Shown: positions 19,211 through 22,359 of the stretch, piece by piece | How the letters are laid out: each line of letters starts with the position of its first letter | Numbering within the stretch: the stretch's first letter is position 1 | DNA from: a virus | IMG/VR virus record: IMGVR_UViG_3300032047_000150 | Coordinates: 1-22,373 of that record | DNA: 22,373 nucleotides | Direction: 5' to 3' (one strand) | Notes under the pieces: model-generated | What the model was told of the DNA's origin: nothing | Database searches by the model: none | Seen by the model: only the letters and a program-made list of their open reading frames with translations | Translations under genes and position numbers: made by a program

Positions 19211-19392
19211 TGATTACTATTGACGACAAAACTTATACAGAAGAAGATTTAGATGATGCACAACTTGTGCAGGTGGAGCGTGTTAATGCACTGCAAGCTG
19301 AACTAAATCATTTACAAATGCGCGCACAGGAACTCAACATTCTTATAAGCGCGTATGCTAATTCTATTAAAGAAAGCCTTGAGGAAGAATAA
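19210..19392 (+). CDS. small coiled-coil phage protein (DUF6447-like)
   Basis: A GTG at 19204 would add two residues, but the ATG at 19210 (TAATG with the previous stop) gives MITIDDKTYTEEDLDDAQLV, matching the usual MITIDGKEY.EEDL start of this small family. The 60 residues continue as one helical coiled coil (VQVERVNALQAELNHLQMRA, ending AYANSIKESLEEE). I recall the family as DUF6447, unknown function, often in the late region of phages. The gene is coupled to both neighbours by TAATG overlaps. Confidence 0.75.
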   Translation: MITIDDKTYTEEDLDDAQLVQVERVNALQAELNHLQMRAQELNILISAYANSIKESLEEE

Positions 19393-19613
19393 TGTCAAAC
19401 TTAGAGCCAAGAGTTAGCAAGCTAGAGTGGCGTGTAGATAATCACTCTAATCAACTAACAAGACTGCATAATCAAACATCTGAACTAAGAGATGAGTTAC
19501 ACAATATTAACAAATCATTACTTCAGATTAAGTGGTTAGCACTTGGTGTTGGGCTTGTGATAGTAGGTGAGTCTCTCGGCTTAGGCGGCATGATGAAAGT
19601 GCTTGGAGTGTAA
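19392..19613 (+). CDS. small coiled-coil protein with C-terminal membrane segment
   Basis: The 73 residues consist of a heptad-like helix (EPRVSKLEWRVDNHSNQLTR through DELHNINKSLLQ, about 5-45) and one hydrophobic segment (WLALGVGLVIVGESLGLGG, about 48-66). This architecture resembles XhlA-type lysis-associated proteins and other small phage membrane proteins, but no specific motif confirms it. It stands immediately before the holin, which supports a membrane or lysis role by inference. The start ATG overlaps the previous stop (TAATG). Confidence 0.7.
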   Translation: MSNLEPRVSKLEWRVDNHSNQLTRLHNQTSELRDELHNINKSLLQIKWLALGVGLVIVGESLGLGGMMKVLGV

Positions 19614-19614
19614 T

Positions 19615-19986
19615 ATGTGGCAATCATTAGTAGGTCCTATAGCTAATATAGCTGGTGGCTACTTAAAAAATAAAGCAGAAGAAAAACAAGCCAAACACAA
19701 GGCTAAACTAAAAGTAATTGAGAACGATGCTGAGTGGGAATCTAAAGCTGTTGATGCTACTCAAAATAGCTGGCGTGACGAATTTTGGACTATAGTTTTG
19801 TCAATTCCTATTTTCATGATCGGTTATTCCATAGTTGTTGGCGATCCAGATATTGTGATTCGTGTTGAAGATGGTTTTCAGGCTTTAGCGCAACTGCCTG
19901 AGTGGTATCAGTATTTATTGTTCATAGCTATTTCTAGTAGCTTTGGTATTAAGGGTGTTAGCAAACTAGCGAGTTTGCGTAAGTGA
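19615..19986 (+). CDS. holin, 3TM (GTA-type) family
   Basis: A holin makes inner-membrane lesions that time lysis and release or activate the endolysin. I start at the ATG at 19615 (MWQSLVGPIANIAGG), not at the in-frame TTG four codons earlier, because GGAG (19605-19608) is well placed before it and homologues as I recall them begin MW. The 123 residues have an N-terminal amphipathic stretch (1-17), a Lys/Glu-rich helix (18-45) and SWRDEFWTIVLSIPIFMIGYSIVV (membrane, about 57-76). Then come DGFQALAQLPEWYQY and a second membrane helix, LLFIAISSSFGIKG (about 100-114). The pattern matches the three-TM holin family found in phages and gene transfer agents. Confidence 0.82.
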   Translation: MWQSLVGPIANIAGGYLKNKAEEKQAKHKAKLKVIENDAEWESKAVDATQNSWRDEFWTIVLSIPIFMIGYSIVVGDPDIVIRVEDGFQALAQLPEWYQYLLFIAISSSFGIKGVSKLASLRK

Positions 19987-20591
19987 GACTACTGTTATTA
20001 CTGTTATCTACTTCAGTGTTTGCGTCAGATAGCCAACAGAATGGTGATTTGAACAATAACACTCAAGACTCTACAGTTAATAGTCACAATGTTACAACAA
20101 GCACTACAACTCAGAATGTAGGGGCAGGGGCAGGAAAGCCTAACCCAGTAAACACTGCTATATCTCCATCTCTTATGTCATCAGGGCAAGATACTTGTCT
20201 GCGTTCAGCTAGTGGTGGCATGCAGATAGATGTACTAGGTATCAATGGTGGTCGCTATGTACAGGATGAGGAATGTAACAGAAGGAAAGACAGTAAGGTT
20301 TTGAAAGACATGGGTATGTCTATCGCGGCAGTGTCTAGGATGTGTCAGAATAATAATAACTGGACCGCCATGTTTATCGCAGGAACACCATGCCCCATAT
20401 TAGTCAATGGTCGCATGGTCTTTGGAAAGAATGCCTTTATAGCCATGAAGAATAACCCGACATTATTTATTCCTGACTATGAAGACAAAGAAGAACACTA
20501 CAACCAACTACTAGGAATAGGGGTAATTATAGATGAAGAAGATACTAGCGACAATCTTAGCGTGTCTGAGCGTTTCCGCCCACAGCATTGA
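19983..20591 (+). CDS. predicted exported cysteine-containing protein, unknown function
   Basis: The GTG at 19983 overlaps the holin stop (GTGA). The first 14 residues (MRLLLLLLSTSVFA) look like a Sec signal with cleavage before SDSQQ. An Asn/Thr/Gln-rich low-complexity linker follows (about 18-50). The folded part (65-180) has four cysteines, C72, C98, C121 and C137, in contexts DTCLRSASGGMQ, EECNRRKDSK, SRMCQNNNNW and GTPCPILVNGR, enough for two disulfides in the periplasm. I do not recognise a named family. Its place between holin and endolysin hints at lysis, envelope modification or superinfection exclusion, but nothing in the sequence decides. The end is overlapped by the next gene over 59 bases. 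Confidence 0.7.
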   Translation: MRLLLLLLSTSVFASDSQQNGDLNNNTQDSTVNSHNVTTSTTTQNVGAGAGKPNPVNTAISPSLMSSGQDTCLRSASGGMQIDVLGINGGRYVQDEECNRRKDSKVLKDMGMSIAAVSRMCQNNNNWTAMFIAGTPCPILVNGRMVFGKNAFIAMKNNPTLFIPDYEDKEEHYNQLLGIGVIIDEEDTSDNLSVSERFRPQH

Positions 20592-21339
20592 TGTATCTAA
20601 CTTAGTTGATACCAGTCAAAGTATTGTAGACACATTTGACTCAGGCATACAGAGAGTATCTGCATTACAAACATTATCTGATCAGGGGTTAATTGCACCT
20701 GACAGTGTGGTGGATGACAGTAAATTGTCCTATGAGCAAGCTCAAGCGTATAATGATGCTTTACAAATGACAACGCAAGCCGTCTATACAATGTCCGCTA
20801 ACGAGTTTGTAGACGAACAAGTAGATCAGGCTAAGCATGAGCTTAACACGGCTGTAAGCGCATTTGTGGGCGCGTCAGAGGTATTGATAAAAGCTGTTGT
20901 TGTTAATGACATGGCAGTCGAGACAGAAGAGAGTGGCGATGCTGTACAGGCACAAGAGATACAGTCTTTTATTGCTAACAATGATGTTGAGATTACTGAC
21001 ACCCATGTTGATGCGTACAATGATTCGCTTGATGCAGTGGAAGAGACAGCACAGACCTTTGCCGCTTTTGTTGCTGTGCAGAATGATGAGGGCTTAGTGC
21101 AGGATATGCAGGCAGAAGTAGATATGATGGGTGATGACTTTATGAATGCTTACGATGCGTCATTTGATTCATCTACTGGTTATGCTTCTTTGTCATTCCA
21201 TACTACTAACGTGGTTATGATTTATAGTTTAGAGGGTGCATTTGTGAGTGCGGCTGATGTGTTGGGCGCAGGGCAAGAAGGTGACTTCTATCAAACTGGA
21301 CCAACTGCTGACAATTGTTTTTACTGTGAGGAATACTAG
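20533..21339 (+). CDS. predicted exported helical protein with C-terminal CxxC, unknown function
   Basis: The 268 residues begin MKKILATILACLSVSAHSID, a signal peptide with probable cleavage after AHS at 18. C11 in ILAC could instead be read as a short lipobox, which I consider less likely. The mature part is acidic and helical, rich in Asp, Val, Ala and Gln, without membrane segments, and ends in NCFYCEEY with a CxxC (C262, C265). AGGGG (20519-20523) lies nine bases before the ATG. The start is nested in the previous gene, in another frame, and the stop overlaps the next GTG (TAGTG). No family recognised; it may work with the preceding exported protein. Confidence 0.7.
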   Translation: MKKILATILACLSVSAHSIDVSNLVDTSQSIVDTFDSGIQRVSALQTLSDQGLIAPDSVVDDSKLSYEQAQAYNDALQMTTQAVYTMSANEFVDEQVDQAKHELNTAVSAFVGASEVLIKAVVVNDMAVETEESGDAVQAQEIQSFIANNDVEITDTHVDAYNDSLDAVEETAQTFAAFVAVQNDEGLVQDMQAEVDMMGDDFMNAYDASFDSSTGYASLSFHTTNVVMIYSLEGAFVSAADVLGAGQEGDFYQTGPTADNCFYCEEY

Positions 21340-21761
21340 TGCTTGCTGATACAGAAGTTAATATAGGTGGTACTAAACTTAAAGGTGTGTGGATTGCCAT
21401 AGTGCTGACGATAGGTACATCCATAGGTGGTACTGTATGGACAGCCAGTAGTTTGTACTCAAGACTAGAGGCGGTAGAGTCTATACAGATACCTGATACC
21501 ACAGAGATGCAAGAGCAACTTGTGGCTTTGGGCGGTAATCTTGAGACTATCATGGAGCGTCAGAAGGAACTCATAGCCCTACAGGAAAGAGTGGTTGATG
21601 TAGAGAAGCTAGTCACTGAGATGCAGGTGACTGTAGAAAAAGCTGAACTAGCTACAGAGAATAGTGATAAGATACAGGGTAGCCTAGATAAGATTGACAA
21701 GGAAGTAGAGGCACTTTGGCAGGGCATGGACTTTTTGGCGAATCCGTATAGAGGTGAATAA
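21339..21761 (+). CDS. membrane-anchored coiled-coil phage protein
   Basis: The 140 residues have a short cytoplasmic head (LADTEVNIGGTKLKG), one membrane segment at about 16-36 (VWIAIVLTIGTSIGGTVWTA) and SSLYSRLEAVES. A long coiled coil (about 55-125) then ends ALWQGMDFLANPYRGE. The motif order GTK.KGVWIA...SIGG..W.AS..YSRLE and the ending ALWQ..D.LANP are ones I recognise from proteins widespread in marine phages, without known function. One N-terminal membrane helix plus an external coiled coil is also the layout of an i-spanin, and the gene sits beside the endolysin, but no paired outer-membrane lipoprotein is evident. The start is GTG at 21339, overlapping the previous stop. Confidence 0.75.
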   Translation: MLADTEVNIGGTKLKGVWIAIVLTIGTSIGGTVWTASSLYSRLEAVESIQIPDTTEMQEQLVALGGNLETIMERQKELIALQERVVDVEKLVTEMQVTVEKAELATENSDKIQGSLDKIDKEVEALWQGMDFLANPYRGE

Positions 21762-22105
21762 TGTTTAGATATTTTAGAAAAGAAGAGTTTAACTGTCAGT
21801 GTACTGGCAACAACGAAATGAAAGATGAGTTCATACATAAGCTAGATGAGTTGAGAAAAGCCTGTGGATTCCCTTTCGTTATATCTTCAGGGTATCGTGA
21901 TCCCTCTCATCCTATCGAGGCTCGTAAGTCTAAGCCCGGAACTCATGCACAAGGTATAGCGGCTGACATAGCTGTGTCTGGTGGCGCAGAGAGATATAAG
22001 ATTGTTAGTGAGGCTATGCGTCTAGGGTTTACTGGGATAGGTGTTGCAAAGACATTCATCCATGTGGACATCCGAGAAACTACACCAGTGGTGTGGGAAT
22101 ACTAA
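21761..22105 (+). CDS. endolysin, peptidase M15 family
   Basis: This is a zinc peptidase that cuts peptidoglycan peptides during lysis. The 114 residues contain the full M15 signature. YFRKEEFNCQC is at 4-14 and FVISSGYRDPSHP at 39-51. The zinc ligands are H62 and D69 in THAQGIAADI, and H101 in FIHVDIR, with D103 next to the last histidine. Length equals a bare catalytic domain with no cell-wall-binding module and no signal peptide, so export should depend on the holin. It is the last plus-strand gene in the window. Its ATG overlaps the previous stop, and its stop overlaps that of the convergent minus-strand gene by four bases. Confidence 0.92.
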   Translation: MFRYFRKEEFNCQCTGNNEMKDEFIHKLDELRKACGFPFVISSGYRDPSHPIEARKSKPGTHAQGIAADIAVSGGAERYKIVSEAMRLGFTGIGVAKTFIHVDIRETTPVVWEY

Positions 22106-22359
22106 GCTAGTAGAGACTTGCGTCTGGTTTTCTTTCTGATCTTCTTAGGCTGAGAGCTGAACTGCTTACCTGCGGCAGTGTCGAGCCTCTTTTTAGCCGA
22201 TGTTGCGGCATACTCTTGAGGGGACAGTGCTTGTCTAACCTTTCTGGGTAGGTATCTTTCCCCTGTAGCCTTTGGACCCTGCGTACTAGGCTTACCTGAC
22301 TTAGTTCCCCAGTCCTGTTTAGTCCACTTCTTTAGGCTACGCTGTGATTTAGCAAGCAT
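22102..22359 (-). CDS. small basic conserved phage protein (DUF5872-like) on opposite strand
   Basis: Reading right to left, this 85-residue protein starts MLAKSQRSLKKWTKQDWGTKSGKPS and continues GERYLPRKVRQALSPQEYAATSAKKR. It ends with AAGKQFSSQPKKIRKKTRRK. The ordered motifs (KSQRSL..WT...W.TKSGK, RYLP, LSP.EYAAT, KGKQF/AAGKQF.QPKKI) match a small basic protein I recognise in cyanophages and other marine phages, DUF5872-like as far as I recall. The high Lys/Arg content suggests nucleic-acid binding, an inference. It is the only minus-strand gene supported here, so an opposite transcription unit enters at this end. Only about 14 bases of its upstream region are inside the window. Confidence 0.85.
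   Translation of the reverse strand: MLAKSQRSLKKWTKQDWGTKSGKPSTQGPKATGERYLPRKVRQALSPQEYAATSAKKRLDTAAGKQFSSQPKKIRKKTRRKSLLA

Follow-up and report, generated by a model that had tools for sequence, protein, structure and literature searches.

Gene layout at the right end of the window

The window analyzed here, a fragment of 22,373 bases from a marine phage (IMG/VR record IMGVR_UViG_3300032047_000150, positions 1 to 22,373), carries podovirus-like late genes, all of which map to the plus strand. At the right end of the window, five genes are chained by overlaps, namely, a holin-like gene, three genes that we denote A, B and C, and an M15 endolysin gene. The features of this region are:

19392..19613, plus strand: XhlA-like small coiled-coil protein with a C-terminal transmembrane (TM) segment (PHROG 1193, hemolysin, E 1.2e-5)
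19615..19986, plus strand: holin-like membrane protein, directly 5' of A (PHROG 2524)
19983..20591, plus strand: gene A, GTG start, putative exported protein of 202 aa (PHROG 20531)
20519..20523, plus strand: Shine-Dalgarno-like AGGGG for B, within gene A, 9 nt 5' of the ATG
20533..20591, plus strand: A/B overlap of 59 nt in different frames, encoding the SERFR tail of A and the signal peptide of B
20533..21339, plus strand: gene B, ATG start, putative exported acidic protein of 268 aa
21339..21761, plus strand: gene C, 140 aa, N-in single TM segment (about 16-34), coiled coil, conserved NP[LY] tail
21761..22105, plus strand: endolysin, Peptidase_M15_3 (PF08291, E 3.4e-11; PHROG 894 endolysin, E 3.9e-31)

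The holin-like gene overlaps A by 4 nt, with the GTG start of A sharing GTGA with the upstream stop codon, and the junctions between B and C (TAGTG) and between C and the endolysin gene (TAATG) are overlaps of 1 nt each; no excess of internal promoters or terminators was detected across the gene chain in the window. The Shine-Dalgarno-like site of B reads TAGGAG in relatives. The endolysin identity of the 21761-22105 product is secure. The holin label of 19615-19986 is putative because PHROG 2524 is a family without an assigned function; the homolog from a near relative matches GTA_holin_3TM below the cut-off (E 5e-4), and in phage Baldr, a protein resembling this product adjoins the lysozyme. 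The match of the 19392-19613 product to Pfam XhlA is also below the cut-off (E 6e-4). Directly 3' of the endolysin gene, a small ORF on the minus strand (22102-22359) encodes a very basic protein of 85 aa, and similar basic ORFs come after C in loci L026 and L041.

A preliminary description of this region identified A and B as an overlapping pair of exported proteins between a holin and an endolysin. Both ORFs are present exactly as described, and B indeed begins 59 bases inside A in another frame. With respect to the location, the endolysin stands and the holin remains putative; the pair turned out to be incomplete, C being a third member that had been missed. The A/B overlap is present in all 135 A-B pairs examined, which come from related contigs, with the same relative frame each time. 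The signal peptides reported for A and B are predicted by a fixed sequence rule that is passed by 38 of 45 A proteins, 42 of 43 B proteins and 19 of the 403 other genes in those loci, and export of both proteins is strongly implied on this basis; an initial, looser rule, which passed 180 of 400 random ORFs, was dropped and replaced with this stricter one.

The dN/dS ratios against close relatives are in the range of 0.08 to 0.16 for A, 0.08 to 0.18 for B and 0.04 to 0.19 for C, and 0.12 to 0.13 for the endolysin. Thus, all four genes encode genuine proteins, and A, B and C are under purifying selection.

Sequence and structure of A, B and C

Protein A consists of a signal peptide, an N/T/S-rich linker (about residues 16-58) that is predicted to be disordered, and a four-Cys domain (about 54-150); as the preliminary description had noted, the linker is accompanied by four cysteines, which occupy positions 72, 98, 121 and 137. 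These cysteines are invariant in 18 aligned sequences and near-invariant over the alignments as a whole, and A carries the C-terminal motif S[VIL]S[ED]RFR. In the AlphaFold2 model (mean pLDDT of 70.5; above 90 for about 91-180), disorder at 12-55 is followed, within the four-Cys domain, by a beta hairpin (73-94) and helices (96-132), with the confident helical part extending to about 178. Because C72 and C98 flank the hairpin, a disulphide between them is plausible in the model. The possibility that this hairpin forms an outer-membrane pore was rejected, the alternation of hydrophobicity being not significant (P of 0.58 and 0.20). The sole family match of A is PHROG 20531 (E 5e-11), a family of unassigned function that is matched also by the SAR11-phage relatives of A, covers no more than the four-Cys part and the sequence around it, and leaves out B and C; no Pfam or NCBIfam family matches A. 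Small ORFs directly 5' of A in three loci (L001 3714-3974, L002 886-1101 and L003 1725-1940) match the A-domain HMM with E values of 7e-6 to 1e-3, those in L001 and L002 having lipoprotein-like starts (LLSAC and LVAAC, respectively); perhaps, these are A-derived partners.

Among cellular genomes, the A domain is rare: it was found in 2 of 385 across one class, one of these matches being weak, but in 15 of 60 genomes of a single family, that of the alphaproteobacterial MAG to which locus L064 belongs. The bacterial proteins (L147-L168, e.g. L064 5742-8642), which sometimes occur in tandem, share with A the signal peptide, a low-complexity stretch and the same four-Cys domain, but differ in that the collagen-like or Asn-rich repeats preceding the domain are far longer and that a Pro-rich tail or, in some cases, an OmpA peptidoglycan-binding domain comes after the domain. 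Beside the A-domain copies of L064, neither B nor C was seen. Judging by the fusion with OmpA, the C-terminal side of the A domain would face the periplasm, and the low-complexity linker of A could be a short version of the bacterial repeats.

These homologs, exported proteins with collagen-like or Asn-rich sequences, are compatible with a role of A as a surface fiber or adhesin, whereby the N/T/S-rich part would be displayed and would aggregate cells or debris, in the manner of the 'sibling capture' that has been proposed for phage curli. Such a role would also fit L146, with its about 150 residues of N/T repeats, and the literature on SAR11 phages, where curli genes and sibling capture have been discussed (PMC7029224, PMC9599517). 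Nevertheless, we consider it improbable, given that the linker spans just about 27-70 residues in the aligned phages, that A and B show no curlin match and the cassette includes no secretion pore, and that no clumping was seen by the authors who described phage Melnitz, a carrier of curli pore genes (PMC9004378). The curli genes of SAR11 phages (CsgG/CsgF/CsgA) resemble A-B-C in encoding exported envelope proteins across phage families but represent different proteins; assignment of the set to curli or type VIII secretion was rejected, with no Pfam match of A, B or C to curlin or CsgE/F/G to E 1.

Protein B is acidic (net charge of the mature protein of -42), ends in NCFYCEEY and is helical, all in accord with the preliminary description: the AlphaFold2 model (mean pLDDT of 90.6, pTM of 0.74) consists of long helices (19-199) and a small beta part. 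No family in Pfam, PHROGs or NCBIfam matches B above the cut-off, and neither A nor B has a PDB relative by sequence to E 1. The best Foldseek E values are 0.29 for B and 0.68 for A; the best VIA Z score for B, 8.0 over 64 helical residues, does not exceed the noise level given for helical models, and that for A is 3.0. These fold matches neither assign A or B to a fold family nor rule one out; three viral models in BFVD match B, with function unstated. The tail of B contains two or more cysteines in 34 proteins, none in 9 and a single one in 0; mature B outside the tail contains no cysteines, and C lacks them altogether. This all-or-none pattern in B, together with the near-invariant cysteines of A and the absence of cysteines from C, is as expected for disulphides formed outside the cytoplasm.

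Protein C contains one N-terminal TM segment, with a mean of 1.96 K/R residues before and 1.26 after it, followed by a coiled coil that is predicted to be periplasmic, so that C is by prediction anchored in the inner membrane. The tail motif [NS]P[LYMF] is present in all 47 sequences, and C of the SAR11 phages is homologous to that of the window (hhalign, 96%, E 2e-9). Two C homologs are annotated as 'lysozyme' in public records, CRP810_gp51 (L001 5318-5740) and CRP207_gp73 (L003 3292-3873); the products being TM plus coiled-coil proteins, this label is likely a misannotation. Phage HTVC115P possesses two C-type genes, one per subfamily, after a single A-B pair (L008 5872-6234 and 6577-7005).

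Distribution, exchange of B and genomic position

In almost all first-round IMG/VR loci whose contigs are long enough, an overlapping B comes after A, and C comes next; the wider HMM scan yielded the same picture, with exceptions accounted for by contig ends, small A paralogs and B types unrelated by sequence. Hence, A-B-C is strongly implied to be one conserved three-gene unit. Relatives of A are encoded on at least 589 IMG/VR stretches, in contigs of up to 133 kb, and tblastn detected A in SAR11 phages (HTVC023P, HTVC115P, HTVC202P, HTVC033P, Baldr and Mosig, the last a member of the Kyanoviridae), in one Autographiviridae genome, in CRP-207 and CRP-810, which are Roseobacter phages, and in contigs from freshwater springs. 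The set appears to be a widespread phage envelope cassette, shared by many unrelated marine phages, that has not been described so far. A second layout of the module is the expanded cassette of L061 (1577-5366) and L062 (3607-6743), where three additional small signal-peptide genes of unassigned family lie between A/B and C; in L061, this cassette also includes a gene with a sub-threshold similarity to transglutaminase-like peptidases. The record for L174 (OQ414636.1) is named EXVC032P Baldr, yet its locus tags read EXVC031PHodr.

Across distant phages (SAR11, Roseobacter, T4-like and Autographiviridae), A and C are kept, whereas several of these phages carry another B. The SAR11 phages carry, in place of B, an exported protein of 430-610 aa with a Glu-rich middle (B'), which shows no detectable homology to B, and further B types are present in L004, L061, L062, L063 and L146. 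Some B types show sub-threshold lectin/carbohydrate-binding or NIDO-like matches and are named accordingly in their records. Because A and C are retained while B is swapped, A and C look like a chassis and B like the exchangeable part, from which we infer that B could be the specificity part of the set.

The replacement of B by unrelated exported proteins next to constant A and C, along with the carbohydrate-binding and NIDO matches, is also what would be anticipated under the main rival to a role in lysis, namely, superinfection exclusion or surface modification, in which A-B-C would alter the envelope and block adsorption or injection by other phages, with the swappable B as the target binder; the occurrence of the set apart from lysis genes in HTVC202P and Baldr (see below) points in the same direction. 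We nevertheless regard this scenario as unlikely: in most phages, the position of the set is late and lysis-linked rather than early, masking requires no coiled-coil tether in the inner membrane, and no exclusion family or defense model was matched, the PADLOC defense models giving only weak, unspecific matches.

The position of the set was analyzed in 48 contigs of at least 15 kb by comparing distances to A, within 4 kb, with random placement in 20,000 trials. Of the 37 contigs with an M15 or GH24 endolysin, 29 have it at this distance from A (10.8 expected; 0 of 20,000 trials equaled this); for GTA_holin_3TM, the count is 10 of 15 (4.1 expected, P 0.0015), as against 2 of 15 for the terminase control (3.3 expected) and a non-significant 5 of 10 for the GH24 lysozyme alone (2.7 expected, P 0.10); because the contigs are related by descent, these P values overstate independence. 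The conserved co-occurrence with holins that the preliminary description had proposed as a check was thus found, as was that with endolysins, which supports the lysis-linked location. Since the set is located 5' of the endolysin gene in some phages and 3' in others, there is no single conserved gene order. Among the 145 neighboring proteins, the commonest families include endolysin (12), PHROG 2524 (8), holin (6) and terminase small subunit (6). HTVC202P and Baldr, both complete SAR11 phages, carry the set next to the terminase gene, with the annotated endolysin about 10 kb away, and in CRP-810 and HTVC115P, no recognized lysis gene is present within the flanks read around the set.

The frequent adjacency to holin-like genes raises the possibility of lysis timing control, with the set regulating the adjoining holin from the periplasm, as a sensor or antiholin, in the way that RI regulates the T holin of T4. 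This appears quite improbable because the known periplasmic antiholins are single small proteins, as opposed to the three genes here, and the set is found also apart from recognized holins. A virion or injection component that travels with structural genes would be consistent with the strand and late block shared with these genes and with the terminase or capsid gene that adjoins the set in some phages. The chance of this is slight: A and B bear signal peptides, the set occurs in phages of different types, and among the homologs seen, none is annotated as a virion protein, an annotation that would have spoken against the preliminary description.

Relation to spanins and a possible role in lysis

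The preliminary description had likened the A/B arrangement to nested spanin genes. This likeness did not hold: neither A nor B contains a consensus lipobox, and the two genes overlap tail to head rather than being nested, and nested spanin genes were accordingly rejected. Cys11 of B is not a lipobox cysteine because it is replaced by Ser in L024 and the preceding residues deviate from the consensus. In the 45 related loci, 5 strict lipobox ORFs are found on the coding strand and 6 on the other strand, that is, the coding strand shows no excess; there is no such ORF in the window, which is a fragment, so that a distant o-spanin gene elsewhere in the genome is possible, none in the complete HTVC202P genome and none on the coding strand of S28C10. 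As a control, the same kind of rule recovers Rz1 and Bor in lambda. An unannotated lipoprotein-like ORF of 54 aa (LFLGC) is present in Baldr (L174 37246-37085, minus strand), without a TM partner, its neighbor having no evident TM segment. The Rz family (PF03245) was detected in none of the 48 contigs, with a positive control in E. coli, and A, B and C have no Pfam Rz match; given the diversity of spanin families, the absence of Rz alone is weak evidence.

Compared to the two-component spanins (Rz/Rz1, in particular, the overlapped class; Kongari et al. 2018, PMC6139136), A-B-C is similar in that exported or anchored envelope proteins are encoded by overlapping genes beside the holin and endolysin genes (with the exceptions of HTVC202P and Baldr), that one partner, C, has the predicted i-spanin topology of an N-in, N-terminal TM segment and a periplasmic coiled coil, and that periplasmic cysteines are present. 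In the window, C is the only single-TM, coiled-coil ORF with such a topology, and in the window, HTVC202P and S28C10, leaving aside the signal peptides of A, no other ORF combines a single N-terminal TM segment with a remainder that is charged and coiled-coil-like. Unlike Rz/Rz1, the set comprises three proteins, lacks an outer-membrane lipoprotein and shows no detected sequence relationship, and its long overlap joins the two secreted proteins rather than involving the TM protein. Because the o-spanin lipoprotein is missing, we do not classify A-B-C as a spanin despite the topology of C and the layout reminiscent of the overlapped class. Two other known types were rejected as well: a unimolecular spanin, in view of the lack of a lipobox in A, B and C and of the single TM segment, found only in C and near its N-terminus; and a disruptin, a short cationic amphipathic peptide, in view of the 202 aa of A and the 268 aa and net charge of -42 of B.

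It is highly probable that A, B and C form an exported and anchored envelope complex. Its function can be proposed only tentatively: we consider it possible, if short of probable, that the putative complex spans the periplasm, is produced late and acts, most likely, in the step of lysis that concerns the outer membrane. Under this proposal, A, B and C would be made with the late genes and assemble as a single envelope complex, in which A and B would fold with disulphides, C would tether the complex to the inner membrane, A would be anchored near the outer membrane or peptidoglycan, and B, a helical rod here and other exported proteins elsewhere, would bridge the periplasm or bind a ligand in the wall or outer membrane. 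Less certainly, once holin and endolysin have done their work, the complex might destabilize the outer membrane, performing the spanin job with different parts.

This role in lysis is favored by the conserved order and overlap of A, B and C, the overlaps that link them in the window to the holin-like and endolysin genes, the proximity to endolysin and holin genes, the signal peptides, the cysteine pattern, the topology of C, the absence of lipobox ORFs from the window and of Rz from the 48 contigs, and the fusions of the bacterial A domain with OmpA. Evidence to the contrary includes the terminase-side location of the set in HTVC202P and Baldr, the lack of lysis genes near the set in CRP-810 and HTVC115P, the non-significant result for GH24 alone, and the fact that none of the three proteins is an outer-membrane lipoprotein; the lectin-like and NIDO-like B types and the adhesin-like bacterial A proteins fit a surface role equally well.

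A survey of 677 phages could identify no spanin in 91 of them (PMC6139136), and whether other outer-membrane disruptors exist in spanin-less phages has been stated as an open question (PMC12819732). That many marine phages without spanins would employ A-B-C as a lipoprotein-free, three-component machine for outer-membrane disruption, with an exchangeable middle part, is a more doubtful extension of the proposal. If the role in lysis is correct, A-B-C may be how spanin-less phages break the outer membrane; if, on the contrary, the set serves exclusion or acts at the surface, phages of several unrelated kinds would still share an envelope module, with a swappable part, that appears not to have been described.
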